Shown piece by piece: positions 10,840-58,593 of a stretch of DNA of 64,000 nt. Origin of the DNA: Halolamina salifodinae (GTDB taxonomy: Archaea > Halobacteriota > Halobacteria > Halobacteriales > Haloferacaceae); the NCBI RefSeq assembly GCF_017874235.1, contig NZ_JAGGLC010000003.1, forward strand, positions 372,001 through 436,000, given 5' to 3'. Below the pieces are notes generated by a model. That model was not told the DNA's origin, did not search any database, and was given only the letters and a program-made list of their open reading frames with translations. Every line of letters begins with the position of its first letter. Positions within the stretch are counted from its first letter, which is position 1. The translations under genes and the position numbers were made by a program.

Positions 10840-11270
10840 TACTCGTAGAGCGAGACCACGAACGGCAGTTTGTTGTACATCATCACGGCGACGGGGATGC
10901 CGACGATGCTCACCGTGAAGGCGTAGGCGACGCTCATCCAGAGGCCGCTGGCCCACCAGCCGACGAACACGAACCAGATCCCGCGGACGAGCAGGCCGTA
11001 GCGCTGCTGGCCGGCGCCTCCTTCCTCATCGTCGGGCGAAGCCCGACTGCCTGAGGGACGGCGTCCCTCGCTGTCGACGAGATCCCGCTCCTTCAGCGAG
11101 AGCACTTTCGGCGTGACGTTGATCATCTTGATCCCCAGCGGGAGGCCGACGATGGTGACGTTCAGGAACCACGCGACGCCGAGCCAGATGCCCGTCGCCC
11201 ACCAGCCCACGAGCAGGAACCAGACCGCACGCACTGCGAGTGAGGGGGCGGCGCTGTCGGATCGGGACAT
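10836..11270 (-). CDS. YccF-domain inner-membrane protein with in-frame hairpin insert
   Basis: A 144-residue membrane protein built of two similar YccF halves (VWFLLVGWWATGIWLGVAWFL and IWFVFVGWWASGLWMSVAYAF), each with hydrophobic helices and an IVGIP/IVGLP motif. Function is unknown. Residues about 64-85 between the halves are unusually polar (SEGRRPSGSRASPDDEE) and are encoded by two tandem perfect hairpins, apparently an insertion. The reading frame is intact. Its stop shares a CTAG with the convergent JAMM gene. Confidence 0.85.
   Translation of the reverse strand: MSRSDSAAPSLAVRAVWFLLVGWWATGIWLGVAWFLNVTIVGLPLGIKMINVTPKVLSLKERDLVDSEGRRPSGSRASPDDEEGGAGQQRYGLLVRGIWFVFVGWWASGLWMSVAYAFTVSIVGIPVAVMMYNKLPFVVSLYEY
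11031..11069. repeat. Tandem in-frame hairpin pair (YccF gene)
   Basis: GTCGGGC/GCCCGAC (11031-11037, 11041-11047; loop gaa) then spacer tgcct, then GAGGGAC/GTCCCTC (11053-11059, 11063-11069; loop ggc). Both arms are perfect 7-mers with 3-base loops. The pair belongs to the family seen in four other genes here. Confidence 0.85.
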
Positions 11271-11312
11271 AGTCGAGAGAAGGGTCGTCGCCGGGATAGC
11301 CCTGACGGCTAG

Positions 11313-12947
11313 TCAGTCCCGGGTCAGGTAGTCGCTGGCCTGCGGTTCCGTCGGGTCGGTCGGCACCTCCACCAGCCGTGGCTCGTCGGCGTCGACGGCC
11401 GCCGAAACCGCATCGCGCACCTCCTCAGGCGTCTCGGCCCGAGTCGCGTCGACGCCCATCGACTCCGCGAGCGCGATGAAGTCGATGGGTGTGTCGCCCC
11501 ACGCGTACGACCCGCGCGGGAGGCCGTGCTCGCGCTCGGCGCCCTCGCTGATGATCGCGTAGTCGTTGTTCCGGAACACGACGGTCGTCACCGGCAGCCC
11601 CTCGGCCGCGGCGGTATGGAGTTCGTGAACCGCCATCATCAGGCCGCCGTCGCCGGTCAGCGCAACCACGTCGGCGTCCGGGTCGGCGGCCTGCGCACCC
11701 AGCGCGGAGGGGAGACCGCTGCCCATCGTCGCCCACGATCCGGGGTTGACGTACGAGCGCGGGCCCATCGCGGGGAACGTTGCGAGCGCCCAGATCCGGA
11801 ACCCCCCCGCGTCGGCGGCGACGACCGCTTCGTCCGGAACTGCTTCGCGGACTGCTTGGAGCGCACCGGGGGAGGTCAGCGGGACCTCGCCGTCGACCAG
11901 TTCCTCGACGCGCCGCGAGACCGACTCGCGCAGGCGGTCGGCGATGGTCTCGGCGTCGTGGTCTGACTCGGGCACGTCGGCGGACAGTGCGGCCAGTGTC
12001 GGCTTGGCGTCGGCGACGATGCCCACCGCTGGGTCGTAGTTCGTCCCCAGATCGTCGGGGGAGAGCGTGACGTGGACCAGCGCGTCGGGCACCACGAGCG
12101 TGCGCCCGCGGGTGACCAGTTCGTCGAAGTCCGTCCCCACCGCGAGCGCGGCGTCGGCCTCGGCGACGTAGTCGTCTATCTCCGGCGTCGTCGCCCCGCA
12201 GAGCACGCCCGCCGAGAGCGGGTGGTCCTCGGGGATGACGCCTTTCCCCTTGTACGTCGTGAGGACGGGAGCGTCGTATCGCTCGGCGAAGGCTCGAAGC
12301 TCATCTGTCGCCTCGGCACTCCGGACGCCGCCACCGGCGATGATGACGGGTGCGTCGGCGTCGTTCAGGATCGCTGCGGCGTCGGCGACGGTGTCTACGG
12401 GTGGCTGCCGCGGTTCGGTGGCCTCGATTTCGGCGACGCCGCCCTCGGGCTTCGGGGCCGGGAGGTAGGATTTGGGTATCCCGAGTCGGACCGGGCCTTT
12501 CGGCGCTGTCGTCGCCGTCTCGACGGCTCGCTCGACCTCGGCGAGCACGCCGTCGGGGTTCTTCACGACGCGGTTGGCTTTGGTGACGGTGTCGTACGTC
12601 TCCGGCGGCGTCTCGTGGATGCCGTCGCGGCCCCGGATCTCGGGGTCAGTCTCGACGGCGATGTGGACCAGCGGCGTGTTGTCGTTGTCGGCGTTTTTCA
12701 GCCCGTTCATCGCGTTCATGTCGCCCGGGCCGGGGACGACGACGGTGGCTGCGGGCCGGCCAGTGGTTTCGGCGTAGCCCCACGCCTCCTGCGAGACGGC
12801 GGTCTCGTGGCGCGCCATCACGAACTGTACGTCGTTGCGGCCGTCGATGGCCTCGTTCAGCGGCAGCGTCTGTTTGCCGGGGATCCCGAACACCGTGTCG
12901 ATGCCGTGTTCGACCAGTCGGTCGACGACGGCGGCGGCGAGCGTCAT
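11313..12947 (-). CDS. ThDP-dependent enzyme, acetolactate synthase/benzoylformate decarboxylase family
   Basis: A 544-residue ThDP enzyme with the three usual domains. The N-terminal catalytic Glu lies in ARHETAVSQEAWGYA (about residue 50). The ThDP-Mg motif is GDGGLMMAVHELHTAAAEGLP...NNDYA (about 425-457). The length fits IlvB-like or 2-oxoacid decarboxylases. It stands alone without an ilvN small subunit, so it is probably not the biosynthetic acetolactate synthase; the substrate is unknown. The ATG at 12947 gives the standard N-terminus; the open frame upstream is an artefact. Confidence 0.88.
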   Translation of the reverse strand: MTLAAAVVDRLVEHGIDTVFGIPGKQTLPLNEAIDGRNDVQFVMARHETAVSQEAWGYAETTGRPAATVVVPGPGDMNAMNGLKNADNDNTPLVHIAVETDPEIRGRDGIHETPPETYDTVTKANRVVKNPDGVLAEVERAVETATTAPKGPVRLGIPKSYLPAPKPEGGVAEIEATEPRQPPVDTVADAAAILNDADAPVIIAGGGVRSAEATDELRAFAERYDAPVLTTYKGKGVIPEDHPLSAGVLCGATTPEIDDYVAEADAALAVGTDFDELVTRGRTLVVPDALVHVTLSPDDLGTNYDPAVGIVADAKPTLAALSADVPESDHDAETIADRLRESVSRRVEELVDGEVPLTSPGALQAVREAVPDEAVVAADAGGFRIWALATFPAMGPRSYVNPGSWATMGSGLPSALGAQAADPDADVVALTGDGGLMMAVHELHTAAAEGLPVTTVVFRNNDYAIISEGAEREHGLPRGSYAWGDTPIDFIALAESMGVDATRAETPEEVRDAVSAAVDADEPRLVEVPTDPTEPQASDYLTRD

Positions 12948-13125
12948 ACGCGGAGGTGGCGACCGGCGACGGGAAAACTGTATCTCACTCGGGCGGCGCG
13001 GTTGAGGGAGACAGGAAACGCTCTCCAAGTGGGCGATTTGTGAGTCGGCACGAACGAGAGGACTAGTTAGCTTCCCGAAGACACTTATCGGTTGGTTGAA
13101 AACTGCCAGCCAGTAGCCTCCCGGA

Positions 13126-14613
13126 ATGACTCGCCCTCCATCTGCGGCACCCGCCACGAGAGTGACGGAACTGCGAGACTCGTGCCGGCGGTATCTCCAG
13201 TTACGTCTCGGCATCGACGCGAGAGCGGTGGCCGCGTTCCGAATGGGGCTAGGCCTCGTCGTCCTCTTCGACCTCGTCTGTTCCCGGATTCCGGGGCTCA
13301 GAACGTTCTACACGGACAGCGGGATCTTGCCCCGGTCGGCCCTCAGGGAGATCTCCCCCACGCTCGCACAGTGGTCGCTGCACGCGATCAGTGGCTCCAT
13401 CTGGGCCCAGGTGCTGCTGGTCGGCGTGACAGGCGTTGCTGCAGCGTGTCTGCTTGTCGGCTATCGACCGCGGCCTGCGGCAGTCGCTTCAGCGCTCCTG
13501 CTCACGTCGCTCCACGCCCGGAACCCGTATCTGGTCAACGGCGGCGACACGATACTCATCTCGGTGCTGTTTCTCGCGGCGTTTCTGCCACTCGATACAC
13601 AGTGGGCGCTCCGGAGTTGCGACCGAACCGATGGGAAGAAGATCCGCTCAGTCGCGACGGCGACGATCCTCCTCCATGTCGAAAGTATCTACGCGGTGAA
13701 CGCGTTGCTCAAGGTCCAGAGCGAGGCGTGGATGGGTGGGATCGCCGTCCAGCGGATCTTCCAACTGCAGGACTTCGTCTACTTGCTGGGGCCGACCGTC
13801 GCGGACTACCCGGCGTTACTCACCGCGATCAACTGGCTGTGGGTTGCACTGCTGTTTGCGTCGGTACTGCTCGTGTTCGCGACTGATCGGCTTCGGGCCG
13901 TCACCGTCGTCGCGTTCATGGGCGCGCACCTCGGGATGGCGGCGACGATGCGCTTGGGTGTCTTTCCGTTCGTCATGATCAGCGCCCTACTGCTGTTTCT
14001 CCCCCAGCGAGTGTGGAACGGCGTTGATCGACGCATCGACGAGAGCGGACCACGCTCCTCGCTCACGTCGCTGATCGGCCAAGAAAACGGCGTGACGCCG
14101 AAATCGCGACTGGCTGCTCGTTCGCCCGCTGTCCGACGGGGAGTTCGGATCACGCTGTCGGTGATTCTCGTCTGTTTCCTCATCACCACCGTAAGCTGGC
14201 AGGTCGTCTCGGCTGACCTCGTCGACACGCCGTCGACGGAAGCGAACGGGATGCTCGAAACCGCGAGTTGGGGGTTTTTCGCGCCGAACCCGCCAGATAC
14301 GTACAGTTGGTACGTCGTCGCAGCCACCCGAAAGTCCGGTGAGCGGCTCGATCTCGTCGATGGGGGCGCTGTGGGGTTCGACCGACCGCCGAACGCGATG
14401 GACCGATATCCAACGACGCTCTGGAAACGCTACGCGACGAAAGGGCGAGATGCTGGAGGCGGCCTCGCGGAGCCAGCAGCGGCGTACTTCTGTCAGCGGA
14501 GCGCCGACGACATCCAGTCGATCACGATCTATCGGGTGGACCAGTCCGTCGACAGGGACGGGCCCGTCGGTGAGCCGACTCGGCACAAACTGGCCTCCAC
14601 CACCTGCGACTGA
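13126..14613 (+). CDS. HTTM-domain membrane protein
   Basis: A 495-residue polytopic protein. The N-terminal 300 residues carry the horizontally transferred transmembrane (HTTM) domain, related to vitamin-K-dependent gamma-carboxylase, including AFRMGLGLVVLFDL and YTDSGILPR. The C-terminal part after a further membrane segment (about 345-365) is extracytoplasmic and soluble-looking. The biochemical role of haloarchaeal HTTM proteins is not known. It is followed after five bases by a small hypothetical gene. Confidence 0.85.
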   Translation: MTRPPSAAPATRVTELRDSCRRYLQLRLGIDARAVAAFRMGLGLVVLFDLVCSRIPGLRTFYTDSGILPRSALREISPTLAQWSLHAISGSIWAQVLLVGVTGVAAACLLVGYRPRPAAVASALLLTSLHARNPYLVNGGDTILISVLFLAAFLPLDTQWALRSCDRTDGKKIRSVATATILLHVESIYAVNALLKVQSEAWMGGIAVQRIFQLQDFVYLLGPTVADYPALLTAINWLWVALLFASVLLVFATDRLRAVTVVAFMGAHLGMAATMRLGVFPFVMISALLLFLPQRVWNGVDRRIDESGPRSSLTSLIGQENGVTPKSRLAARSPAVRRGVRITLSVILVCFLITTVSWQVVSADLVDTPSTEANGMLETASWGFFAPNPPDTYSWYVVAATRKSGERLDLVDGGAVGFDRPPNAMDRYPTTLWKRYATKGRDAGGGLAEPAAAYFCQRSADDIQSITIYRVDQSVDRDGPVGEPTRHKLASTTCD

Positions 14614-14618
14614 CGAGC

Positions 14619-14954
14619 GTGAGCAGCGAGGGCCAAACGTCGGACCGGGAGATACAGGTCCGTACGGCTGGTACTGATCGCATGGCTCCCACTGTTGCCG
14701 AGCAACGAAACGAGATCCGGGTCGCGGTCGGTCGGTACAAGCGGAAAGTGTCCTCGGGATTCACGAAGGAAGCGTTGGCAGCGATCTGTGACTCGCTCGA
14801 CGCGGACGTGGAGATCGACGTCCTCCCGAAGAAGGGGGTGATGCGCGCGGCCATCGCTGAAGAGGTCGAGGGCGTCGACGGCAGCCGGGATCAGGGCAGC
14901 GCGTTCCGGAAAGCAGAACTGACGGCGATCACGGCGGCGGTCAGTTCGGACTGA
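14619..14954 (+). CDS. Small hypothetical protein
   Basis: A 111-residue frame with a GTG start five bases after the HTTM stop. An ATG at 14682 would give a 90-residue protein (MAPTVAEQRNEIRV) that looks more compact. The core is helical and mixed-charge (VGRYKRKVSSGFTKEALAAICDSLDADVEIDVLPKKG). There are no membrane segments or known motifs. The spacing suggests cotranscription with the HTTM gene. The true start is uncertain. Confidence 0.55.
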   Translation: MSSEGQTSDREIQVRTAGTDRMAPTVAEQRNEIRVAVGRYKRKVSSGFTKEALAAICDSLDADVEIDVLPKKGVMRAAIAEEVEGVDGSRDQGSAFRKAELTAITAAVSSD

Positions 14955-14984
14955 CTTCTCTATCGACGAGCAGCGAACGCCCGC

Positions 14985-15839
14985 TTACTGGTTCCACGCC
15001 GCGGCGTCGGGGTCGATCAGCCGTTCCTCGTCCTCGATGCCGTCGATGGTCGCGACGTCCTCCTCGGTCAGTTCGAGGTCCGTGGCTTCGCGGTTCGCGC
15101 GGATGTGGTCCGCGTCGGTGGACTGCGGAATCGGGACGACGCCCTTCTCGACGGCCCACGCGATGCAGACCGCGGCGACGGTGGTGTCGTGGCGCTCGGC
15201 GACTTCCCGCAGTTCGGGCGTGTCGAAGATTTCGCCCTGTCCGAGCGGGCAGTAGCCGACGAGCGTGTGGCCGTGTTCGTCGGCATACGCCCGGAGTTCG
15301 TCCTGCGGGAACAGCGGGTGGCACTCGACCTGGTGAGCCGCGATATCGATGTCGAGGATCTCGCGAGCCTCGTCCAGTAGTTCGGGCGTGAAGTTCGAGA
15401 CGCCGACGTTCCGGGCGACGCCCTCCTCGTGGAGCTCCTGCAGCGCGCGCAGGCTCTCCTCGGGGTCGTACGCGCCGGTCGGCCAGTGGACGTACAGCAG
15501 GTCGACGGCGTCGACGTCGCCAGAACGCGACGCGTTCTGGCTGGCTGACGAATCGCTACGCGATTCGGCAACGCCGAGGCGTTCGAGACTCTCCTCGCTG
15601 GAGCGCTTGGCGTCCTCGTAGCCGAGGTTGTCCGGCAGTATCTTGCTCGCCAGCACGATGTCTTCGCGGGCCACTTCGGAGAGACGGATGCCCGCACCCA
15701 CCGCGGGCTCGTTGTCGTACATCTGGGCGGTGTCGACGAGGCGGTAGCCGGCGTCCAGCGCGGTCCAGACCGCGTCAGCGCACTCGTGGCCCTTGGCGCC
15801 GGAGGTGCCGAAGCCGATGTCGGGAAGGTCGAGACTCAT
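14985..15839 (-). CDS. Aldo/keto reductase with in-frame hairpin insert
   Basis: A 284-residue AKR barrel. Landmarks are GYRLVDTAQMYDNE (catalytic Asp and Tyr), LASKILPD (Lys), LYVHWP (His) and PIPQSTDADHI for NADPH binding. It reduces carbonyl compounds; the substrate is unknown. Between the conserved SLERLG and DLLYVHWP segments there is an extra polar stretch (residues about 90-107, SRSDSSASQNASRSGD) encoded by two tandem perfect hairpins. Homologues have only a few residues here. The frame is intact, so the enzyme may still fold. Confidence 0.9.
   Translation of the reverse strand: MSLDLPDIGFGTSGAKGHECADAVWTALDAGYRLVDTAQMYDNEPAVGAGIRLSEVAREDIVLASKILPDNLGYEDAKRSSEESLERLGVAESRSDSSASQNASRSGDVDAVDLLYVHWPTGAYDPEESLRALQELHEEGVARNVGVSNFTPELLDEAREILDIDIAAHQVECHPLFPQDELRAYADEHGHTLVGYCPLGQGEIFDTPELREVAERHDTTVAAVCIAWAVEKGVVPIPQSTDADHIRANREATDLELTEEDVATIDGIEDEERLIDPDAAAWNQ
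15519..15567. repeat. Tandem in-frame hairpin pair (aldo/keto reductase gene)
   Basis: GCCAGAACGC/GCGTTCTGGC (15519-15528, 15532-15541; loop gac), spacer tggctga, then CGAATCGC/GCGATTCG (15549-15556, 15560-15567; loop tac). Arms are perfect and loops are three bases, as in the other four in-gene copies. Confidence 0.88.
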
Positions 15840-15938
15840 GTGGGCGAGTGGTAGGGTCCGGGGAGTAAAGAACTCCGCTTCGCGGCGGTTCGCGCACGGG
15901 AGAGCGACTAAGTGCGCCGCGCTCCAACGTTGAGGAAT

Positions 15939-16505
15939 ATGCTCTCCACCAATACGGACGCAGGAACGCTGAGTCGGGGTCTCGCCGGGGGCGCGGTGCT
16001 TGCCGCGCTGCTCGCGTCGGCCGTGCTGTTGTTCCCCCAGCCACCCGCAGACGTGTTCTTCACGGGAATCGTGCTGCTGTGCCCGCTGTTCGCCGTCGTC
16101 GGCGCCGCCGGCGCGTGGACCGGCCACACGGCGCTGGTCTGGGTGGCCGCGCTGCTCTCTGTCGGGCTCACGCTGGCGGGCGCGATGTCGGTCGGCCTCC
16201 TGTTCGCGCCGGCCGCCCTCCTCTTGCTCGGGAGCGCCGTCGCCGCGCAGGCTGCTGGTCCCGATACGGCGGCCCAAGAGAGCCTCCTCGCCGATCCGCC
16301 CGAGGCTCGTGAACGGGCTCAGAAAGCGCTCCTCGGCGTCGCCGGCATCGTCGTCGGCGCCGCCGCGGTCGACGCCGCCGCGTTGGACCGGGACCTGTTC
16401 GGCTCCTGTGCGCAGGAGACACTGGGCTGTGTGCTGCAGACGACGAACTGGGGGCTGGTCGGCCTGACGCTGCTCGGCTTCGGCGCCGTCGCTGGGGGTG
16501 GGTAG
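15939..16505 (+). CDS. Hypothetical four-helix membrane protein
   Basis: A 188-residue protein with about four to five hydrophobic segments (LAGGAVLAALLASAVLLF, FFTGIVLLCPLFAVVGAAGAW, LVWVAALLSVGLTLAGAMSVGLL, ALLGVAGIVVGAAAV, WGLVGLTLLGFGAVAGGG). I do not recognise a family. The ATG at 15939 is preferred over a GTG nine codons upstream. The gene diverges from the aldo/keto reductase and converges on gatA. Confidence 0.7.
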   Translation: MLSTNTDAGTLSRGLAGGAVLAALLASAVLLFPQPPADVFFTGIVLLCPLFAVVGAAGAWTGHTALVWVAALLSVGLTLAGAMSVGLLFAPAALLLLGSAVAAQAAGPDTAAQESLLADPPEARERAQKALLGVAGIVVGAAAVDAAALDRDLFGSCAQETLGCVLQTTNWGLVGLTLLGFGAVAGGG

Positions 16506-16562
16506 CTGCTCTGGAGACAGGTGTACGTCACGCGAGTGCTCGCCGGAACGCGGGCGGGCTGA

Positions 16563-18149: not shown

Positions 18150-18334
18150 ACTCTCCGGTCGCTCCGGATTGGGAGTAAGGGTTTCGGTGGGGCCCGAGAC
18201 CGCCGTCGGAACGCCTTCGGGCGGACCAATCGGCCGGCCGAGCGTAAGCGTCGAGTTCGGCACGGACCCGCCGAAAGACGACCGGTGGCTCTGGGTTTGG
18301 GCTGCCGGCTACGCGGCCGTCGGCGGTCTCCCGC

Positions 18335-28741: not shown

Positions 28742-30043
28742 ATGGCACGCAAACGGTTCACACGCCGGCGGTTCGTCGGCGCCGCTGGGACGACAGCGAC
28801 GCTAGGGATCACCGGCTGCCTCGGCGGTGGCGGCGGCGGTGGAGACACGATCCGGTACCTCTCGGACCGCGGGGACTCCAGCGACGTGATCGACGAGATC
28901 ATCGCTGAGTTCGAGGGGGAATACGACTACACGGTCGACGTAACGTACACGTCCCGAGGGACGTCGACGGACGAGGAGCTCCAGCAGATGCTGGCGGCGG
29001 GCAATCCGCCGGACATCGTATTCGACACCTCGACGGACGCGTACCGCTACCAGCGAAACGGCAACCTCGCGCCGGTTTCCGACGCGGTGCAGGGGACCGG
29101 CCTCCCCGACCCGGTCAACGTCGACGGCGAGTCCTACTTCGCGCCGACCATCGTCGAACCGCTGATGGGGTGGTACCGGAACGATATCTACGAGGAGAAG
29201 CCGACCACGTTTGAGACGTGGCGCAGCGAGGCCCAGCGGGTCACCGAGGAGGAGGACGACATCGACGGCTACATCGTCCAGTCCGGCCAGACCAACAACG
29301 CCGCGACTGCCACGACCCAGTACCTCTGGCAGAACGACGTGGAGATTTACGGCGGCCCGTCCGACAACATCGAGGTCACCATCGACCAGGGCGACAACCG
29401 GAACCGAGCCGTCGAGACGTACTCGTGGCTCCAGGAGATGAGCGAGTACTCACCCACCGGCTCTGGATGGGGATGGGGCGACGGGACCCAAGCGCTTCAG
29501 CAGGAGAACGCGGCGGGGCTGATGTCCGTCGGCGGCCTCCCCATCCTGACCATCCGCGAGAACCGACCAGATCTGGTCGAGAACCTCTCGCCGACTGGGT
29601 TCCCGATTCCGGAGGGAGGCCAGCAGGACAAGTGGTGGGCCTACATGGAAGGTCACGTTGTCCGGAACGACGGCGACGCTACCGAGGGCGCCCAGGAGTT
29701 CGCGCGGTTCTTCAGCGAGTCCGACCGCTTCCTCGACTTCGTGCTGTCGGCGCCGCTGTTCCAGTGGCCGCCCACGGAGGAGGGCCTCAACAGCGACGCG
29801 GTACAGGAAAACGAGGTTCTCGCGGAGCACCAGGACGCGGTGGACCTGATTCGGGACAACTGGGACGCGTTCACCACCGTTCTCGAAACGGGGGACGGGG
29901 GGGTGCCGAACATCGTCGCCGCCGACGCGTACGGCCAGCAGATGTTCGGCCAGTCGGCCGAGCAGATGCTCGTGGGGGGACGCTCGCCCGAGGAGACCGT
30001 CGACTGGATCGCCGAAGAGCTCCGCGGCCTGCAGGAGGAGTAG
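28742..30043 (+). CDS. ABC transporter substrate-binding lipoprotein (CUT1-like)
   Basis: A 433-residue solute-binding protein. The N-terminus is a Tat signal with a lipobox: twin arginine at RRRF (8-11) and ITGC with Cys26 as the lipidated residue, typical of haloarchaeal exported proteins. A Gly-rich tether follows, then a two-lobed sugar-type binding fold (family 1). The partner genes are of the carbohydrate-uptake CUT1 type, but family 1 proteins also bind other solutes such as glycerol phosphates. First gene of a tightly spaced operon. Confidence 0.93.
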   Translation: MARKRFTRRRFVGAAGTTATLGITGCLGGGGGGGDTIRYLSDRGDSSDVIDEIIAEFEGEYDYTVDVTYTSRGTSTDEELQQMLAAGNPPDIVFDTSTDAYRYQRNGNLAPVSDAVQGTGLPDPVNVDGESYFAPTIVEPLMGWYRNDIYEEKPTTFETWRSEAQRVTEEEDDIDGYIVQSGQTNNAATATTQYLWQNDVEIYGGPSDNIEVTIDQGDNRNRAVETYSWLQEMSEYSPTGSGWGWGDGTQALQQENAAGLMSVGGLPILTIRENRPDLVENLSPTGFPIPEGGQQDKWWAYMEGHVVRNDGDATEGAQEFARFFSESDRFLDFVLSAPLFQWPPTEEGLNSDAVQENEVLAEHQDAVDLIRDNWDAFTTVLETGDGGVPNIVAADAYGQQMFGQSAEQMLVGGRSPEETVDWIAEELRGLQEE

Positions 30044-30052
30044 CGCTCCTCG

Positions 30053-30967
30053 ATGTCCGCTGTCAGTACCCTGCAGGGAAGGCTCGCTGAGTTCGACGAG
30101 AAGCGACTGCTGTTGCTCGCGACGTTCGTCCCGTTCACGCTGTTTTTCGTCCTGGTCTGGGGCGTCCCCATCGGCTACGCGCTGGGGATGAGCCTGTTCT
30201 CGGACCCGACTGGGGCCGCGGAGTTCGCCGCGTTCGCGAACTACGCGGGCGTTCTCACCTCGGAGCTGTTCAGCACCGCGCTGTTCAACAGTGTCGTCTA
30301 CGCGCTCTCCTCGACGATTCTCAGCCTGGTGCTGGGACTGGGGCTCGCGCTTGTGGTCAACCGGGAGATAACGGGCGGCAACGCCCTGCGGACGATGATG
30401 ATCTTCCCGTACCTGCTACCGACGCTGGTGGTCATCTTCATGTGGACGTTCCTGCTCGACCCCAACGTCGGCGCGGTGAACCAGTTCCTGCTGGACTACG
30501 GGCTAGTACAGGAGCCGCTGGCCTTCTTCTCGTCGACGCAGTGGGCGATGCCTGCTGTCGTCGTCGCCAGCGTCTGGAAGTACGGCTCCTTCGCCTTCTT
30601 CATCCTGCTTGCGCGCTTGCAGGCCATCGACCCGAACCTCTATGAGCGCGCCCGCGTCGAGGGGGCGTCGACGTGGCAGGCCTTCCGTGACATCACGGTC
30701 CCGCACCTGCGTGGGGCGATCCTGATCATCATCCTCGTCAGAGGGATCTGGATGTTCAACAAGTTCGACATCATCTACCTCGCGACCCGCGGTGGACCGC
30801 TCGACGCCACGACCACGCTGCCGATCATGGTGTACGAACTGGCGTTCCGGGGCTCGCCCAACTTCGGCGGGGCGACGGCGCTTGCCGGAATCATGTTCAT
30901 GCTGCTGGCGGCCGTCGCCGTCGTCTACTTCTGGGTCTTCGAGCCCGAACAGGAGGTGGCGAACTGA
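30053..30967 (+). CDS. ABC transporter permease (MalF/UgpA-like)
   Basis: A 304-residue permease with six membrane segments and the cytoplasmic EAA loop RARVEGASTWQAFRDITVPHLRG that docks on the ATPase. It is the first of two permeases of a CUT1-type importer. It starts nine bases after the binding-protein stop, and its TGA overlaps the next ATG by one base. Confidence 0.93.
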   Translation: MSAVSTLQGRLAEFDEKRLLLLATFVPFTLFFVLVWGVPIGYALGMSLFSDPTGAAEFAAFANYAGVLTSELFSTALFNSVVYALSSTILSLVLGLGLALVVNREITGGNALRTMMIFPYLLPTLVVIFMWTFLLDPNVGAVNQFLLDYGLVQEPLAFFSSTQWAMPAVVVASVWKYGSFAFFILLARLQAIDPNLYERARVEGASTWQAFRDITVPHLRGAILIIILVRGIWMFNKFDIIYLATRGGPLDATTTLPIMVYELAFRGSPNFGGATALAGIMFMLLAAVAVVYFWVFEPEQEVAN

Positions 30968-51083: not shown

Positions 51084-51173
51084 CTGCAAGCGTCCACGGA
51101 AGAAACGCGTGTACTTTCTTTCACGGTTCTTCCGGCAAGAAGTGTTTTGAACGGGGCGCCCGACTCTCGCGAC

Positions 51174-52076
51174 ATGGAACGGACCTCGCTTACCCGACGT
51201 GACACCCTCCGAGTCGGTGCGACCGCGGCACTCGCCGGCCTCGCCGGCTGTTCCGGCAGTATCGGTGGCAGCGCCACCGTCTACGGCCGGTGGACCCCGG
51301 CACAGGAGGGCAGCGGCGCCAACCAGAGCGGCGAGTCGATTCGGGCGATGGAGCCAGCCGACCTCGACGAAGGCCGGCACACGCTCGGCGACCGCTACGA
51401 CCTGATGGCCGCGTTCCTCGAACCGCCGGTGCCGACCATGGAGTTCGGCGAACTCGACGCCGTCTACTACAACGGCGGCTGGACCACTTCGCTGTACGGC
51501 GTCGAAGCCGAGTTCGAGCAGTCCGCGATGGTCAGCGCCTACCAGAACGAACTCGACGCGGAAACGGTCAACAGCACGTACAGCGGCTACGAACTCTACC
51601 GCGTCGACGCCACGCTCACCTCCTACCTCGTCGGCGTCGCCGACGGGCGAATCGCCATCTCCTCGAACGGCGACCGGGACCGCGCGGCCATCGAGTCGCT
51701 CATCGACGCCCGCGAGGACGGCACGCGCCGGACGAACAACGACGGCCCGCTCTCCTCGCTCGAGTCCGCGGTGGGCCAGGAGTCCTCCACCGAGATCTCG
51801 GTCGGCGACGACGTGGGGGTACAGGTCGGCGAGACCACGCCCACGGCCGTCGCGATGGGGTTCAGCGTCACCGACACCGAGGAGGACCTCGTGAGTCTCA
51901 CCAGCGGCTTCATCCTCCCGGACACCGTCACAGAGCCTGAGGCGGCCGTCGAGGCCCGGCTCAGCGCCGACGCCTCCGTCGGCGTGCTGAACTACTCGGA
52001 GGCCGAGATCAGCACCGACTCCGGCGTCGTCGTCGCGACGGAGGAGCGGCCCGTGGCTGACGGACTCGCCTTCTAG
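51174..52076 (+). CDS. Hypothetical exported lipoprotein
   Basis: A 300-residue protein with a Tat/lipobox N-terminus: twin arginine TRRDTLRVG and LAGC with Cys26 lipidated. The mature part is acidic and mainly beta-like, with no recognised domain. TGTTTTGAAC at about 51141-51150 lies 24-33 bases before the ATG and is a TATA candidate. It converges on the M20 peptidase gene, and both stops share a CTAG. Confidence 0.8.
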   Translation: MERTSLTRRDTLRVGATAALAGLAGCSGSIGGSATVYGRWTPAQEGSGANQSGESIRAMEPADLDEGRHTLGDRYDLMAAFLEPPVPTMEFGELDAVYYNGGWTTSLYGVEAEFEQSAMVSAYQNELDAETVNSTYSGYELYRVDATLTSYLVGVADGRIAISSNGDRDRAAIESLIDAREDGTRRTNNDGPLSSLESAVGQESSTEISVGDDVGVQVGETTPTAVAMGFSVTDTEEDLVSLTSGFILPDTVTEPEAAVEARLSADASVGVLNYSEAEISTDSGVVVATEERPVADGLAF

Positions 52077-53539
52077 AGGCTCTCGAACAGTTCGATGCTG
52101 GTCCGGATCCCGCTCCGGAAGCAGGAAAGCGCGAGGTTCTCGTCGGGCGAGTGGTTGTTCTCGTCCTCGTTCGCGTAGGGCACCGTCACGCAGGGCAGTC
52201 CCAACTCTCGCTCGAACACCGCAGTCGGCAGCGACCCGCCGAGTGTCGGCTTCAGGATGGGGTCGGTGGGCCACGCCGCGCGAACGGCGTCCATCACCGG
52301 CTCACGGATCGGGTGGTCCAGCGAGGTGCGCTGGGGGCGCATCGCGCCCATTTCTGTCACTTCCACGTCACAGACCCCGGTCGCGTGCTCGTGGACGTGG
52401 GTCTCGAAGGCGTCGTAGATCTCCTTCGGGTCCTGATCGGCGACGAGGCGCATGTCCATCTTGAGCGTCGCCGTCGACGGCAGGACCGTCTTGCTCCCCT
52501 CGCCGCCGTAGCCCGAGGTGAACCCGCAGATGTTGCAGGTCGGGTAGTAGAGCAGTTTCTCGAGGTAGCTGTCACCCGGGCCCTCGGCGAACGCCTGTAC
52601 GTCGAGGTCGGCCTTGATGGCGTCCTCGTCGAACGGCATCGCCGCCAGCGCTTCGCGGTCCCGGGCTTCGATCGGTCGCACGTCGTCGTAGAAGCCGTCG
52701 ATGGCGACGCGGCCGGTTTCGTCCTTGAGCGAGGCGACGATGCGGACTAACTCCCACGCGGGGTTCGGGACGGGGCCGCCGTAGTTGCCGGAGTGGAGGT
52801 CGCGGTTCGGCCCAGTCACGTCGACCTGCACGTACTGCATCCCGCGGGCCCCCATCAGGACGTGCGGGCGGCCCGAGGCGTCGATGGGGCCGTCGGCGAC
52901 GAAGGCGAGGTCTGCGTCGCCGGACTGCGTCCGGCTGCCAGAGGAGCTTCGCTCCTCGCTGTCCGCACCGAGCACGTCGGCGTACTCCCGGACCACGTCG
53001 TCGAGGTTGGGGCTGCCGCTCTCCTCTTCGCCCTCGAGCAGGAGGGTGACGTTGATCGGGAGCCCGGTCGTCTCGCGCAGCGCGCGTACGGCACAGAGAT
53101 GCGAGAACCACTGGCCCTTGTTGTCGCCGGCGCCGCGCGCGTAGATGCGCTCGCGGCCGTCCGGGCCCTCGCGGATCGTCGGTTCGAACGGCGGCGTGGT
53201 CCACTCGTCGGGATCGGCTGGCTGCACGTCGTAGTGGCCGTAGACGAAGATTGTCGGTGCCTCCTCGCCCGGGACGGCCCGCTCGTCGGCGCCCGGCCGA
53301 CCGTCGCCGGTCGCACCTGTGTCTGCCCCCGCTCGCGCGATCACGGCCGGCTGTCCGGGGGTCTCGACCCGCATCGCGTCGTCGAAGCCGTACTTCTCGC
53401 AGAGCGACTGGACCAGTTCCACACAGTCGGCGACGCCCTCGCCGGTCGCACTGATGGATGGCTGAGAGAGCAGGTCGAAGAGGTCCTCAAGCTGTTCGTC
53501 CTCGTGGTCGTCGACGTACTGTCTGGCCTCGGCACTCAT
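52073..53539 (-). CDS. M20 family dipeptidase/peptidase with in-frame hairpin insert
   Basis: A 488-residue dizinc peptidase. Metal ligands are seen in YGHYDVQPAD, GAGDNKGQW and LEGEEESGSPN, with later ligands in VADGPID and the C-terminal EDENNHSPDE. It probably hydrolyses dipeptides or amidated amino acids. Residues about 190-207 (SEERSSSGSRTQSGD), just before the conserved LAFVADGP strand, are encoded by two tandem hairpins and look inserted. A second acidic insertion (about 75-90) lies in a loop after AVIARAG. Confidence 0.92.
   Translation of the reverse strand: MSAEARQYVDDHEDEQLEDLFDLLSQPSISATGEGVADCVELVQSLCEKYGFDDAMRVETPGQPAVIARAGADTGATGDGRPGADERAVPGEEAPTIFVYGHYDVQPADPDEWTTPPFEPTIREGPDGRERIYARGAGDNKGQWFSHLCAVRALRETTGLPINVTLLLEGEEESGSPNLDDVVREYADVLGADSEERSSSGSRTQSGDADLAFVADGPIDASGRPHVLMGARGMQYVQVDVTGPNRDLHSGNYGGPVPNPAWELVRIVASLKDETGRVAIDGFYDDVRPIEARDREALAAMPFDEDAIKADLDVQAFAEGPGDSYLEKLLYYPTCNICGFTSGYGGEGSKTVLPSTATLKMDMRLVADQDPKEIYDAFETHVHEHATGVCDVEVTEMGAMRPQRTSLDHPIREPVMDAVRAAWPTDPILKPTLGGSLPTAVFERELGLPCVTVPYANEDENNHSPDENLALSCFRSGIRTSIELFESL
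52919..52957. repeat. Tandem in-frame hairpin pair (M20 gene)
   Basis: GCCGGAC/GTCCGGC (52919-52925, 52929-52935; loop tgc), spacer tgcca, GAGGAGC/GCTCCTC (52941-52947, 52951-52957; loop ttc). The same arms in the same order are present in serA. Confidence 0.92.
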
Positions 53540-53635
53540 CGGCGTTCACCGGTCATGGGTCCCCGTGGCACGGGCGCGGCTAAATCCCCATCGGATCCGG
53601 CGACGGGCAAATGGGCCACGGCGACCAACGAACTC

Positions 53636-54127
53636 TCACTCGATCCGCCCCAGCGCGATTTCGCGGGCGGTGTCAGCGGGCGGTTCGGCCGTGATCGCTA
53701 TCGAGTCGACCCACTTGACGCTCTCCCAGCAGTCGCCGTCACCCGTGGGAATCAGGCGTGCAGGGCCGCCGTGTTCGGTCGGGAGTGGTTCGCCGTCGAG
53801 TTCGAGCGCCAGCACTGCGCTCTCGATCCGTTCGAGCGGGAAGGCACAGGCGTACTCGCCGTCCATCGCGTGGACGAGCGCGTACTGGCTCTCCGGCGTC
53901 GGTTCGACGCGCTCGAGCAGATCAGCGACGCGGACGTCGCGCCAGGAGAGCCCTGCAGCCGTCCAGCCGGCTTCACAGTCGAAGTCCTCGGCGAACGTCT
54001 CGTTCGGGAGCGCTGCGAGGTCCGCTGCGTCGAACGCCCGGGGCCGGCGGACGCTCCCGCGGATCGTCAGCGCCCAGTCGTCGGTCGTGACCTCGTCGGG
54101 AACGTCGTAGCGCGGGAGTCCGTCCAT
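53636..54127 (-). CDS. Sulfite oxidase-like molybdopterin-domain protein
   Basis: A 163-residue protein resembling the molybdopterin-binding domain of sulfite oxidase/YedY (WALTIRGSVRRPRAFDAADLAALPNETFAEDFDCEAGWTAAGLSWRDVRVADLL). The cysteine in DFDCEAGW is at the place of the Mo-coordinating cysteine. It is shorter than YedY and lacks a signal peptide, so it may be a cytoplasmic minimal form. The redox partner and substrate are unknown. Confidence 0.85.
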   Translation of the reverse strand: MDGLPRYDVPDEVTTDDWALTIRGSVRRPRAFDAADLAALPNETFAEDFDCEAGWTAAGLSWRDVRVADLLERVEPTPESQYALVHAMDGEYACAFPLERIESAVLALELDGEPLPTEHGGPARLIPTGDGDCWESVKWVDSIAITAEPPADTAREIALGRIE

Positions 54128-54216
54128 CGGTTGGAGTTTGGTTCAGAGAAGCAAGAAGGCCGGTGCGAACGAGTTCGGCTCGAGCCGTTCTCGAGTCAGA
54201 AGCGGGAGGCGGGTCC

Positions 54217-55836
54217 TCAGAGCGACAGCTGCGTCACGTCGATGATTCGGCTGTCGGCTTCCAGTTCCGACAGCGCCGCCTCGGGCACGTCGTCGTCGAG
54301 GCTGTACACCGTGAGCGCCTCGCCGCCGATGGTCCCGCGGGCGTTGTACATCCCGGCGATGTTCACGTCGTACTCACCTAGCACCGAGCCGATCAGGCCG
54401 ATGACGCCCGGCACGTCCTTGTTCCATGCGACGAGCATGTGGCCGTGGGGCAGCGCGTCGACGCGGTAGCCGTCGATGGAGACCAGTCGCGGCTCGTCGC
54501 CGGTGAACAGCGTCCCCGACACCGAGAGTTCGTCCTCACCGTCGCCGGACTTCGTCCGGCTGCTAGAGGAGCTTTGCTCCTCCCTGTCGCCGACGGTGAC
54601 GGTGAGCAGGCTCCGGAAGTCCGCCGAGGAGCGGGTTTTGCTCTCGGTCACGTCGACGCCGCGCTCCTCGGCGACGCGGGGGGCGTTGACCGAGTTGACC
54701 TGCCACTCCAGGGGCGCGAACGCGCCCTGCTGGGCGCTGGCGGTGACCAGTTCCACGTCCTCCTCGGCGATTTCGCCCTCGTAGCTCACTTCGATGTGCT
54801 CGATCCGGCCGTCGAACAGCTCTGCGGCGACGCGGCCGGCAGTCTGTGCGAGGCCGAGATACGGCTCGATGCGGGGGAACGCGCTCTCGTCGACGGAGGG
54901 CGCGTTGAGCGCGTTCATCACTGGCTCGCCGGCGAATGCCGCGAGCACCTGCTCGGCGGTGGCGACGGCGACGTGCTCCTGTGCCTCAGCCGTCGAGGCG
55001 CCGAGGTGCGGCGTGAGCACGATATCCTCCACGTCGCGGAGGGGAGAGTCCGCGGGGAGTGGCTCCTCGGCGAACACGTCAAGTGCCGCGCCGGCGACGA
55101 CGCCGTCCTCGACGGCCTCGGCCAGCGCGCCCTCGTCGACAACGCCGCCGCGGGCGACGTTGATCACGTAGCCGTCCTCGAGTTGGGCGAGTTCGGCGTC
55201 AGAAATCAGCCCCTCGGTCTCGTCGGTCAGCGGCACGTGGACCGTGAGGAACTCCGCGCGGTCGATACACTCCTCGAGGTCGACCAACTCCGCGCCGATC
55301 TGTTCGGCACGCTCCTCGCTGATGTAGGGGTCGTAGGCGACCAGTTCCATCCCCAGCGAGCCCAGGCGCTTGGCGGCCTCCTGGCCGACCCGGCCGAGGC
55401 CGACGATGCCGAGCGTCTTGCCGTTGAGTTCGGTCCCGAGGAACTCGCCTTTGGCCCACGTGCCCCCGGCCATGCGGCCGTGGGCCTGCGGGATCGAGCG
55501 CGCGGCCGCGAACGCCATCCCGACGGTGTGTTCGGCCGCCGCGCGGACGTTCCCCTCCGGCGCGTTGGCGACGACGACGCCGTGGTCGGTGGCGGCGTCG
55601 ATGTCGATGTTGTCGACGCCGATGCCCGCCCGGCCGACGATCTGGAGGTCCGGCGCCGCCTCGAACAGCGCGGCGTCGACCTCGGTCCCCGAGCGAACGA
55701 TCAGCGCATCAGCGTCGGAGACGGCTTCGAGCAGCGCGTCTCCCTCGATGTCGTAGGCCGTCACAGCCTCGTGGCCCGCCTCGCGAAGCCGGTCGATCCC
55801 GGCGTCGGCGATCGGATCCGTGATGAGTACTCGCAC
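54217..55836 (-). CDS. serA: D-3-phosphoglycerate dehydrogenase with in-frame hairpin insert
   Basis: A 539-residue long-form SerA, starting at GTG (VRVLITDPIADAG). It has the NAD Rossmann motif GLGRVGQEAAKRLG, the dehydrogenase signature, an intervening ASB domain (about 315-455) and a C-terminal ACT domain (about 462-539) for serine feedback. Residues about 415-433 (REEQSSSSSRTKSGDGED) split two beta strands of the ASB domain (LLTVTV and SVSGTLF) and are encoded by two tandem hairpins. In ordinary SerA these strands are joined by a short turn. Confidence 0.95.
   Translation of the reverse strand: MRVLITDPIADAGIDRLREAGHEAVTAYDIEGDALLEAVSDADALIVRSGTEVDAALFEAAPDLQIVGRAGIGVDNIDIDAATDHGVVVANAPEGNVRAAAEHTVGMAFAAARSIPQAHGRMAGGTWAKGEFLGTELNGKTLGIVGLGRVGQEAAKRLGSLGMELVAYDPYISEERAEQIGAELVDLEECIDRAEFLTVHVPLTDETEGLISDAELAQLEDGYVINVARGGVVDEGALAEAVEDGVVAGAALDVFAEEPLPADSPLRDVEDIVLTPHLGASTAEAQEHVAVATAEQVLAAFAGEPVMNALNAPSVDESAFPRIEPYLGLAQTAGRVAAELFDGRIEHIEVSYEGEIAEEDVELVTASAQQGAFAPLEWQVNSVNAPRVAEERGVDVTESKTRSSADFRSLLTVTVGDREEQSSSSSRTKSGDGEDELSVSGTLFTGDEPRLVSIDGYRVDALPHGHMLVAWNKDVPGVIGLIGSVLGEYDVNIAGMYNARGTIGGEALTVYSLDDDVPEAALSELEADSRIIDVTQLSL
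54544..54582. repeat. Tandem in-frame hairpin pair (serA)
   Basis: GCCGGAC/GTCCGGC (54544-54550, 54554-54560; loop ttc), spacer tgcta, GAGGAGC/GCTCCTC (54566-54572, 54576-54582; loop ttt). The 39-base unit differs from the M20 copy only in the loops and one spacer base. Confidence 0.92.
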
Positions 55837-55899
55837 GGGCGGAGCGAGTCACCCCCGGCGGTTAACGCTTTCTGCGGAATGCGACTGGTTGTCGAATAT

Positions 55900-55923
55900 C
55901 TATACACGTGTATGGGTGTATAG
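55900..55923. promoter_or_regulatory. Palindromic operator candidate upstream of serA
   Basis: Perfect inverted arms CTATACAC (55900-55907) and GTGTATAG (55916-55923) enclose eight bases, and a nested 12-base palindrome ATACACGTGTAT lies at 55902-55913. It is AT-rich in an otherwise GC-rich background, about 65 bases upstream of the serA start and about 80 bases downstream of the 3' end of the next gene. It is probably a regulator-binding site and may include the serA TATA box. Confidence 0.5.
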
Positions 55924-56004
55924 AGTGGCTGAGGAGAATATAGGCACACAGATATGCTGTTCAACGACGGTAGTCGGGCGGCGACTCAACCCGGGTCTCG
56001 CCGC

Positions 56005-56538
56005 TCACGGTGAGATGTCGAGAAGCTCCGTCGAGCCGGTGATGTCCGACTGCACGTCGATGACCTCGGCAGACTCAGCTCGCCGGAGCAGTTCCTCGGC
56101 GAACTCCGCGTGGGTGCCGACCGCGCCGGTGGAGACGAACCCCGAGTGTTCGGCCTTGGGTTCGAGCACGAACTGGTAGCGCTGCCCGGGTTCGAGGTCG
56201 GACGACTCGACGAACACGGAGGAGCCACTGCCGTGTTTGAGCGCACAGACCCCCTCGATCTCCGCCCAGTTGAGATACGTCGTGTCGTCGTATCGGTCGG
56301 CCTCCGAGCGGCTCACCGAGAACGGGTCGTACAGCCCCAGTCGGCTCGGGAGCCCGAACAGCGCGCTGTCGAGCGTGTCGCCGACGAACGCCTCGACGCC
56401 GCCTGTCCGGGAGCTACCGAACACCAGCTGGTCGTCCTCCAGGAACACCGTCCCCTTGCCGCCGACATCCGAGCCCGAGAGCCCGTCGGCGACCGAGGCG
56501 TTGCGCTCGATCAGGTTTAGCTTGCATTGGTACGTCAT
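56005..56538 (-). CDS. Hypothetical protein
   Basis: A 177-residue soluble protein (MTYQCKLNLIERNASVADGL...). It reads as mostly beta strands with a C-terminal helix (AEFAEELLRRAES) and could be a PH-like or split-barrel fold (FLEDDQLVFGSSRTGGVEAFVGDTLDSALFGLPSRLGLYDPF), but I do not recognise a family. It diverges from serB and lies upstream of serA on the same strand. Confidence 0.75.
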   Translation of the reverse strand: MTYQCKLNLIERNASVADGLSGSDVGGKGTVFLEDDQLVFGSSRTGGVEAFVGDTLDSALFGLPSRLGLYDPFSVSRSEADRYDDTTYLNWAEIEGVCALKHGSGSSVFVESSDLEPGQRYQFVLEPKAEHSGFVSTGAVGTHAEFAEELLRRAESAEVIDVQSDITGSTELLDISP

Positions 56539-56667
56539 AGCGTGCCAACCAGACGGCGGATACAGTAAAACTGTTGGGATCGTTGGAGAACCGGCCGTCG
56601 AAACATCTCGCGCGGTCACCGTGCCGGCTCTCGTGCGCTTTAAGCCTGGAGGGGTCACAGGGGGCGT

Positions 56668-57306
56668 ATGACGCTGGTCGCTTTCGACTTCGACGGGACG
56701 CTCTCGGATGCGGAGATGCTGGTCGCACTGGGCGAGCGCTACGGCGTCGCCGAGGAGATCGGCGACATCACCGCCCGCGCGATGCGCGGCGAGATCTCCT
56801 ACGCCGAGAGCCTGCGCGAGCGCGCGGCGATGCTCGAGGCGCTCTCGGAACACGAGGCCGCCGCAGCCTACGAGGAGACCGCGCTCCGGCGGGGGGCCGC
56901 CGACGTGATCGAGCGCCTCAACGACGCCGGCCACACGACCGCCATCCTGACTGGCGGCTTCACGCCGGGCGTCGAAGCCGCGCTGGAGCGCGACGGCGCC
57001 GAAGTGGACCGCATCGTCGCCAACGACCTCCCCATCGTCGACGGCGAACTCACCGGCGAGGTCGAGGGGTCGCTGATCGAGGGGACCAAGGACGACGCGC
57101 TGGCGGATCTCTGCGAGGAGTACGGTATCGACCTCGTGAACACCGTCGCGGTCGGCGACGGCGCGAACGACCTCCCGATGCTGAAAGCCGCGGGTCACGC
57201 GGTCGGCTTCGAACCCAAGGACGCTGTTTCCCCGCACTGCGAGGACGTGGTGACGACGATGGCGGCGCTGGGCGGCCTGTTCGAGCGAACCGGGCTGCTC
57301 GACTGA
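56668..57306 (+). CDS. serB: Phosphoserine phosphatase
   Basis: A 212-residue HAD-superfamily phosphatase. Motif I is AFDFDGTLSD (D7 nucleophile, D9 acid/base), motif II AILTGGF, and motif III/IV GTKDDALADL and VGDGANDLPML. It makes serine from phosphoserine, the last step of the pathway started by SerA. CTTTAAG at about 56638-56644 lies 24-30 bases before the ATG, a leaderless promoter arrangement. Confidence 0.92.
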   Translation: MTLVAFDFDGTLSDAEMLVALGERYGVAEEIGDITARAMRGEISYAESLRERAAMLEALSEHEAAAAYEETALRRGAADVIERLNDAGHTTAILTGGFTPGVEAALERDGAEVDRIVANDLPIVDGELTGEVEGSLIEGTKDDALADLCEEYGIDLVNTVAVGDGANDLPMLKAAGHAVGFEPKDAVSPHCEDVVTTMAALGGLFERTGLLD

Positions 57307-57309
57307 GTT

Positions 57310-58593
57310 TTACGCGTCCAGTTCGTTTCGCGCTTTCTTGACGCCGGCCTCGGTGTCGATGTCGACGCCGACCTGTTCGAACGCCTCCCCGATGGTCCGG
57401 ATCCCGCGCAGAAGTTGGTCGCTCGTGAGATTCCCCATGTTGCTCACCCGGAAAACCTCGCCGCCGAGGTGGGCCTGCCCGCCCGAGATGGAGACGCCGC
57501 GCTCCGAGACGGCGTCGAAGAACGCTTCGCTGTCGTCACCGCGCGCGCCCTCGGGGAGGTCGATGGCTGTGAGGGTGTTCGAGTACGCCGTCGCCTCGTT
57601 CAGTTCGGGGAAGGACTCGAGCCCCATCGCCCACATCGCCTCGCGGAACGCAGTCGACTGCCGGCGGTGGCGGGCGATCCGGCCGCTCATCCCCTCAGCT
57701 TCGATCTCCTCGACGGCGACCGCGAGGCCGCGGAACAGCGGGACCGCGCTGGTGAAAGGCGTCTGGTGCTGGCCCGCCTTTCGGCTGTGCCAGTCCAGAT
57801 CCTCGTAGAACGGCGCGTTCCCGCCGTCGATGTGGGCGTCGACGTCATCAGAACACGACGTGTTCTGGTTGTCACCGGAAGCCGACGGCTTCCGGTTGCC
57901 CGAGGGACTACGTCCCTCGCTGGCAGACGAGAGCCCCTGGCTCTCGTCGACGCCGTCAGCGACGTAGAGCGCCGAGACGCCCGGCGGCGCCGCGAGCGCC
58001 TTCTGGCCGTCCGTGACCGCGATGTCGACGTTCCAGTCGTCGATGCGGAACTCGTCGCCGCCGATGGAGGTGACGCCGTCGACGACGAACCGGGCGTCGG
58101 CCGCGGCGGCGATCTCGCCGATCTCTCTGACGGGGTTCAGCAGGCCCGTACTGGTCTCGTTGTGGACGACGGTGACGACTTCGGTGTCGTCGGAGACGGC
58201 GGCGTCGACGGCATCGAGGTCGACCGGGTCGCCCCAGTCGAACTCAACAGGGGTGACCTCGCAGTGGCGCTCGGCGATGCGCTTGAACCGCCGGCCGAAC
58301 TTCCCGTTGACGACGGCGACGAGTTCGTCGTCCTCGTCGACGAGGTTGGCGACGGCGGCCTCCATGCCCATCGTGGCGGTGCCGTTGAGGATGAGTGCCT
58401 CCCCGCCCACGGACGTCGACGCCTCGCTCGGCGTCGAGCGCTCGAACACGTACTCCAGTCCGTCCTGTGCGCGCTCGTACACCGCCTCGAACGCCGCGGA
58501 GCGATGGGAGACCATCGGCTCGCTCATCGCCTCGCGGACGTCGGCACTCAGCGGTACGGGCCCCGGGTTGAGCAGGAGGAAATCCTCTCGCAT
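57310..58593 (-). CDS. Class V aminotransferase, probable (phospho)serine aminotransferase, with four-hairpin insert
   Basis: A 427-residue fold-type I enzyme of the serine-glyoxylate/alanine-glyoxylate/phosphoserine aminotransferase group. The N-terminus LLNPGPVPLSADVREAMSEPMVSHRS, VDGVTSIGGDEFRIDDW and the PLP lysine in VTDGQKALAAPPG are clear. Next to serA and serB it probably supplies the transamination step of serine synthesis. Residues about 215-250, between ALYVADG and NAPFYEDL, are Ser/Gly-rich and encoded by four tandem hairpins; without them the length is about 390, as in homologues. Confidence 0.9.
   Translation of the reverse strand: MREDFLLLNPGPVPLSADVREAMSEPMVSHRSAAFEAVYERAQDGLEYVFERSTPSEASTSVGGEALILNGTATMGMEAAVANLVDEDDELVAVVNGKFGRRFKRIAERHCEVTPVEFDWGDPVDLDAVDAAVSDDTEVVTVVHNETSTGLLNPVREIGEIAAAADARFVVDGVTSIGGDEFRIDDWNVDIAVTDGQKALAAPPGVSALYVADGVDESQGLSSASEGRSPSGNRKPSASGDNQNTSCSDDVDAHIDGGNAPFYEDLDWHSRKAGQHQTPFTSAVPLFRGLAVAVEEIEAEGMSGRIARHRRQSTAFREAMWAMGLESFPELNEATAYSNTLTAIDLPEGARGDDSEAFFDAVSERGVSISGGQAHLGGEVFRVSNMGNLTSDQLLRGIRTIGEAFEQVGVDIDTEAGVKKARNELDA
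57849..57948. repeat. Array of four in-frame hairpins (class V aminotransferase gene)
   Basis: CAGAACAC/GTGTTCTG (57849-57867), CCGGAAGCC/GGCTTCCGG (57875-57895), CGAGGGAC/GTCCCTCG (57901-57919) and GACGAGAGCC/GGCTCTCGTC (57926-57948). Each has perfect arms of 8-10 bases, a loop of exactly three bases, and 5-7-base spacers containing TTG or TGGCA. Confidence 0.93.

Follow-up and report, generated by a model that had tools for sequence, protein, structure and literature searches.

The DNA analysed here is a stretch of 64,000 nucleotides from Halolamina salifodinae (contig NZ_JAGGLC010000003.1, positions 372,001 to 436,000; hereafter the window), which lies within contig C3 of a 2.75 Mb, Halolamina-like genome of nine contigs, and five of its genes contain a short palindromic element built of paired hairpins with loops of three bases. 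All five genes and their elements are on the reverse strand. The YccF gene (10836..11270; Pfam PF03733) carries the element at 11028..11075, with hairpins at 11031-11047 and 11053-11069; this copy scores 62.4 bits against the covariance model described below, encodes DSEGRRPSGSRASPDD and adds a net 45 bp. The aldo/keto reductase gene (14985..15842, its start inferred from the match to Pfam PF00248) holds a variant at 15516..15572, with stems of 8 and 10 bp (hairpins 15519-15541 and 15549-15567), which encodes ESRSDSSASQNASRSGD, adds 57 bp and matches the model weakly, at 13 bits. Canonical copies are found in the M20 peptidase gene (52073..53539; PF01546), where the element at 52916..52963 (hairpins 52919-52935 and 52941-52957; 77.3 bits) encodes DSEERSSSGSRTQSGD and adds 48 bp, and in serA, the D-3-phosphoglycerate dehydrogenase gene (54217..55836; PF02826 and PF19304), where the element at 54541..54588 (hairpins 54544-54560 and 54566-54582; 73.9 bits) encodes DREEQSSSSSRTKSGD and adds 45 bp. 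The nearest relatives of this serA are those of Halolamina rubra (85%) and H. pelagica (83%). In the class V aminotransferase gene (57310..58593; PF00266) a tandem element at 57844..57951, whose exact ends are ambiguous because of a flanking repeat, contains four triloop hairpins (57849-57867, 57874-57896, 57901-57919 and 57926-57948), adds 108 bp and includes a model match at 57871-57924 (49.3 bits). A scan of the sequence finds perfect hairpins with arms of 7-10 bases and a loop of exactly three at all five sites. The preliminary description of this DNA had reported tandem hairpins of this kind as in-frame insertions in five genes; the hairpins are where it placed them, Pfam supports all five host families, and by comparison with orthologues all five segments are clean in-frame inserts. 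Rfam at gathering scores gives no match in the window. A further window match at 30008-30057 (27.8 bits) was not counted, being barely over the best score of a decoy model (27.4 bits).

The unit consists of two hairpins, A and B, each with a 3-base loop and a stem of 7 bp (sometimes 8-10), linked by a TGGCA-like spacer. In host-gene orientation, the canonical 48-nt form is GACAnC-[GAGGAGC GAA GCTCCTC]-TnGCA-[GCCGGAC GnA GTCCGGC]-GAC, from which a peptide of about (D/G)xEERSSSxSRTxSGD is read, and its ends are frequently of the GAC/CGTC type. The longer stems, of up to 10 bp, belong to the aminotransferase and aldo/keto reductase copies. As a rule the net length added is 45 bp, with variants and tandem multiples besides (48, 51, 57, 72 and 108 bp are also seen), these values being taken mostly from protein alignments.

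Comparison with orthologues shows that the copies are dispersed insertions that are absent from most of them. For serA, every one of 80 orthologues lacks 12 or more residues where the 15-residue segment stands. The YccF and aldo/keto reductase segments are missing in four of four congeners each, the 16 residues of the M20 peptidase in both orthologues (H. rubra and H. pelagica), and the 36 residues of the aminotransferase in three of three. Ten further host genes compared across four congeners gave 40 rows, of which 34 are empty, four occupied (LeuC in G003, the OGG-like and GTPBP1-like genes in G006, and an ABC gene in G005) and two unresolved, both from a variable region of ValS; the three empty GTPBP1-like rows are shorter by 9-11 residues rather than 15. 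Another ten genes, including YccF and the aldo/keto reductase of the window, are empty in all 36 rows, four of the 40 possible orthologues having been left out (one for hydantoinase, three for CofD). Overall, 155 of 161 orthologous rows from 23 host genes are empty, so that the clean absence from relatives by which the preliminary description proposed to judge its case is what was found.

Single hairpins are only moderately above chance and would not be convincing alone. With arms of at least 7 bases, 23 triloop hairpins occur in the window as compared with about 13 in Markov sequence, and with arms of at least 8 bases, 40 occur in a 400-kb genome sample as compared with 14-38 for other loop lengths. 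Pairing of hairpins is far more distinctive: tandem pairs with arms of at least 7 bases number 10 in the 400-kb sample for a loop of 3 and 0-2 for each of 15 other lengths between 0 and 15, in a count that places loops with pairable end bases under the shorter loop. Without that filter loop 3 has 13 pairs and the other lengths have 0-9, the value of 9 being that of loop 5, which includes triloop hairpins with longer arms. A few of the loop-3 pairs do not resemble the element family. A covariance model built from nine copies of the 48-nt unit gave 85 genome matches at E<=0.01 (best 77.3 bits), whereas a decoy made from the same sequences reversed, which keeps composition and hairpins, gave two (best 27.4 bits). 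On the tandem-pair spectrum and the decoy model we rejected an origin by chance, and the large excess agrees with what the preliminary description expected of a genome-wide search. The element is thus multicopy palindromic DNA dispersed across one genome, as in the class typified by the Rickettsia palindromic elements (RPEs).

Copies within genes lie mostly in one frame and one orientation. We examined 70 loci, that is, ranks 1-71 of the 85 matches minus one opposite-strand duplicate, and assigned frames with a codon model trained on the open reading frames of the window. Both flanks are coding and in one frame for 41 copies, 34 of these being in sense frame 0, five in antisense frame 0, one in sense frame 2 and one in antisense frame 2. 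For two copies (L135 and L163) the coding frame appears not to be frame 0, L163 scoring barely higher than the best decoy (27.8 as against 27.4 bits). Every host protein scanned matches a Pfam family (39 loci and the aldo/keto reductase, and in addition three further loci and the remaining four window genes), the scan covering all hosts of the 34 sense frame-0 copies except L157 and eight of 15 copies with one coding flank. The hosts include LeuC (aconitase family), class I aminoacyl-tRNA synthetases, MutL, a Dna2-type protein, photolyase, GatB/GatE, IlvD and ABC proteins. Across 39 canonical copies the element's frame +0 contains no stop, as is likewise true of frame +1, and of the six frames it has the lowest mean hydropathy (-1.66) and the most negative charge (-1.6). 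In a predicted model of the serA product (mean pLDDT 72.2) the segment, residues 418-432, has pLDDT below 50 and lies between strands 408-415 and 435-443. The earlier proposal that the inserts occupy loops fits this low-confidence loop between two strands, in one protein of the 23.

Some copies have a more complex setting. Several non-coding copies belong to mosaics in which triloop hairpins differ widely in their arms; such mosaics, at L028:1322-1928, L029:1123-1726, L138, L143, L144, L148, L153 and L161, appear to be intergenic, combine several hairpins of unrelated arms with similar spacers and are in part common to several places in the genome. In histidine kinases of four genera the element directly follows an NLFRNSVEH-like motif; SVEH recurs there, and the element often forms 45-bp tandem units, making this a hot spot. 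The loci are L026, L146 and L150 in the window's own genome, L235, L239, L243, L247, L251 and L255 in G029, L249 in G018 and L254 in G037; L026, L146, L150, L249, L254 and L255 are confirmed as histidine kinases by Pfam and the others were assigned by the motif.

The element extends well beyond one genome. Matches at E<=0.01 were obtained in 51 of 60 relatives, and counts range from 0 to 77 among genomes of the order Halobacteriales. In a sample of 295 genomes of the phylum, 48 have a match at E<=1e-5, of which 47 (the window's own genome included) are in the order and one, at 9.5e-6, is outside it; this corresponds to 47 of about 60 Halobacteriales, the 13 members without a match being counted from the order of the listing, as compared with one of about 235 other genomes. 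In four genomes, 30 further loci, some overlapping in tandem arrays, include 19 for which both flanks are best read in sense frame 0 and none with both flanks antisense. Six plasmid records from five genera match one 58-base query, one of them over half its length, and in all five that are annotated the copy is in sense and in frame within a coding sequence; the same type of search, with one 58-base query, gave no match in a phage collection. On a plasmid of Halobacterium sp. DL1 (L229) an element-bearing aconitase gene is followed by a gene annotated as an IS605 transposase.

The stems stay paired through changes in both arms. Among the 39 canonical copies, 98.5% of stem cells are paired, and 91 cells are changed on both sides as compared with 26 in shuffles; two are changed on one side only and eight are unpaired, these cells being counts of sequences rather than of events, in copies that were found with a structure model, which favours pairing. 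The four inserts held in common with a congener differ within the element at 0/48, 0/48, 3/48 and 9/48 positions where their flanks differ by 13, 19, 14 and 10%, and three of the four are thus more conserved than their flanks. In the GTPBP1-like insert (L024 compared with L190) the first 28 nt are identical, stem A being the same, and stem B is changed in both arms.

The sites entered by the element have features of their own. Many ancestral sites contain (G/T)CGAC, and the junctions bear short direct repeats more often than controls do: exact direct repeats at a 45-bp shift have a mean length of 4.6 nt in 29 copies as compared with 2.2-3.0 nt in controls, and repeats of at least 6 nt are found in 24% of copies and 1.3% of controls. 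In 304 predicted genes CGAC is read as xxC-GAC in 5472 of 7128 cases (77%). Because CGAC is mostly read in this phase and the element has a length of 3n, an insertion there would tend to be in frame, and the phase of the target together with selection on the peptide would give the frame bias that we observe.

Our results make it highly probable that these copies form a haloarchaeal family of palindromic insertion elements, short and non-autonomous, as selfish DNA that is tolerated inside proteins in the manner of RPEs. Copies would spread as DNA through a trans-acting activity that recognises the hairpins and inserts at CGAC-like sites; in the GC-rich genes of haloarchaea this motif has the phase xxC-GAC in about three of four cases, and an element 3n long would thus tend to land in frame. 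Selection would then favour an acidic, very hydrophilic peptide (sense frame 0) located in a loop, and copies that fail in this respect would be lost. The added acidic loop is probably harmless to the host proteins. The preliminary description spoke of a mobile or self-copying element, and of this the mobile part is favoured by the scattered copies and by their presence and absence in relatives; no enzyme could be attached to the self-copying.

Several points weigh against this reading. Mobility is inferred, and movement itself was not observed. A mobilising enzyme was looked for through Y1 genes and tnpB loci and none was found; two genomes in which the element has 41 and 39 copies contain no Y1 (IS200/RAYT-fold) transposase. 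By the codon test, 29 of the 70 copies are not within a frame on both sides, 15 having one coding flank and 14 none. The CGAC target was read from diverged relatives, and some sites, among them those of CofD, the GTPBP1-like gene and, in part, LeuC, fit it poorly. Two of five covariation measures fail to beat shuffling, namely pairs with change on both sides (27/500) and further pair types (154/500), the other three beating every one of 500 shuffles. One shared insert, the GTPBP1-like one with 9/48 differences, is more diverged than its flanks. The contrast between the order and the rest of the phylum is a weaker control than the decoy because the 235 outside genomes are unmatched for G+C. Finally, simple insertion along the tree does not suffice for the four shared inserts: a ten-gene tree groups the genome of the window with G001, and the inserts are shared instead with G003, G005 and G006, so that precise loss, transfer or repeated insertion is needed.

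A more far-reaching form of the insertion-element reading, which we put forward tentatively and consider possible rather than probable, is that of an active, order-wide archaeal drive element whose CGAC target coincides with codon phase, which would be in frame through choice of target and not through selection alone, and in whose hairpins both arms are rewritten jointly. One arm might be copied from the other, or whole hairpins might be re-copied from elsewhere. If true, this would account for stems that pair well although their sequences differ, the patchy sharing between species, the shared insert with one unchanged hairpin and a second one altered in both arms, and the greater conservation of the other shared inserts relative to the surrounding codons.

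An alternate explanation for the origin of the element, which we regard as unlikely, is that it is what remains of the end of an IS200/IS605-type transposon, comparable to the PATEs of Haloquadratum, with fused near-terminal palindromes moved by TnpA in trans. In the available part of PMC3119063, PATEs are described as mobile palindromic repeats that occur in a haloarchaeon, lack a transposase and in some cases derive from ends of the IS605 type, and single-strand recognition of a hairpin combined with a fixed short target would fit our observations. Triloop hairpins are also present within 100 bp downstream of two of six tnpB loci (L300 and L302), as neighbours or as ends; at L300 they form by eye a pair, and at L302 the hairpin is that of L259 at about 2375-2393. 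However, at three of the six loci the end can be read, and it is a downstream hairpin with an 8-base loop before TGTCAA or GGTCAA, unlike the element; no such end was read at the remaining three. The copy number of the element does not track Y1 genes, and an association with Y1/RAYT was rejected: the two element-rich genomes named above lack them, and G010, which lacks the element, has 10 copies of Y1. No paired triloop hairpins were found in the 8 kb around the only Y1 gene of the window's genome. An IS605-type origin is therefore not supported, though it keeps a modest probability.

Spread through homologous recombination over short tracts or through gene conversion among copies, with tandem slippage and few or no transpositions, would account for the 45-bp arrays in the histidine kinases, for the two of four shared inserts that are identical at 48/48 positions while their flanks differ by 13-19%, and for sharing that is incongruent with the tree. 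In the DNA alignments, however, the homology between the element and the flanks of sites in unrelated genes is limited to a few bases, and the founding insertions therefore need another process; as a full account we think this improbable. There is less still to recommend the proposal that the hairpins serve a host DNA or RNA function, for example in the nucleoid, with gyrase or in mRNA stability, as proposed for repetitive extragenic palindromes (REPs), and are retained for it. The paired stems, and the fact that three of four shared copies are highly conserved, are consistent with such a role, yet genomes of one order differ in their counts (0-77) and most sites are empty in congeners, and we give it little credence. 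That the segments are adaptive acidic loops selected at the protein level, with hairpins a by-product of haloarchaeal codon bias, would suit the acidic and hydrophilic frame 0 and the three conserved shared inserts but is already disfavoured by the covariation of the stems at the DNA level and by the non-coding copies and mosaics, and with five antisense coding copies and a same-composition decoy model that finds almost nothing it is hardly credible.

In the way it works the element resembles RPEs and the intragenic CGTC-tagged REPs. RPEs (Ogata et al. 2000) and the coding palindromes of Wolbachia are cited in PMC2996958, in the available part of which the former are palindromic in-frame inserts in assorted housekeeping genes, typically in non-structured segments. 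The likeness is one of description; our element is archaeal, has twin 3-base-loop hairpins and a length of 45-48 bp, and differs further in its variable, covarying stems, its strong sense bias and its presence throughout an order. CGTC-tagged REPs, which according to the accessible sections of PMC3733652 include RPE-4 and RPE-6 as well as intragenic REPs in bacteria, share with the element a CGTC-type motif, paired hairpins, intragenic members and the lack of a dedicated transposase. CGTC stands beside stem B in 20 of the 39 canonical copies and the listed variants TGTC or CCTC in seven more (27/39 in all), with other letters in 12; the antisense spacer, which is TGCCC in 13 copies, TGCCA in seven and otherwise in 19, fits the CCA tail of these REPs partly. 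Their loops, as given in those sections, are of 4-5 bases as compared with 3 here, other lengths being noted for a few species, and their stems are of 8-9 bp with complementary A-T at positions 1 and 2. The element is not so built: its canonical stems have 7 bp, with variants up to 10, position 1 is G-C in all 39 copies of stem A and G-C in 31, A-U in seven and C-G in one of stem B, and in stem A the second pair is A-U in 29 of 39. No word beginning with "halo" occurs in PMC3733652. REP/RAYT systems (REPINs) have a GTAG tag and a RAYT (Y1) gene flanked by the repeats, whereas the tag of our element is CGTC-like and no linkage to Y1 was found around the single Y1 gene of the window's genome.

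Among archaea, palindromic elements with coding potential have been reported for Methanocaldococcus jannaschii, a methanogen (Suyama et al. 2005), a case known here by its citation in PMC2996958 alone. PARCELs are likewise palindromic coding repeats that form tandem arrays; as far as PMC2996958 could be drawn upon, they differ in being amphipathic repeat domains linked to membrane proteins, with none reported in Archaea. The PATEs and SMRs of Haloquadratum are transposase-free mobile haloarchaeal repeats, the PATEs having near-terminal palindromes; in the part of PMC3119063 at hand PATEs are related to IS605-type transposons, SMR-A is about 110 bp, and in-frame coding inserts are described for neither of them. 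The literature searched gave no account of an element like ours in haloarchaea, which left most subscription papers outside and was in part aimed elsewhere. Since coding palindromes were already known in M. jannaschii and intragenic REPs in bacteria, the general kind is known, and the haloarchaeal form differs from CGTC-tagged REPs in loop and stem.

With this finding, palindromes that invade proteins are known not only from intracellular bacteria and one methanogen but also from an order of free-living archaea, whose carriers include named, culturable strains. Inserts in aminoacyl-tRNA synthetases, MutL, photolyase, LeuC, IlvD and serA provide many natural comparisons of a protein with and without the segment at the same site, and for annotation it matters that such segments are insertions and not protein domains. 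The codon-phased target offers a testable reason why selfish DNA may enter genes without breaking them.

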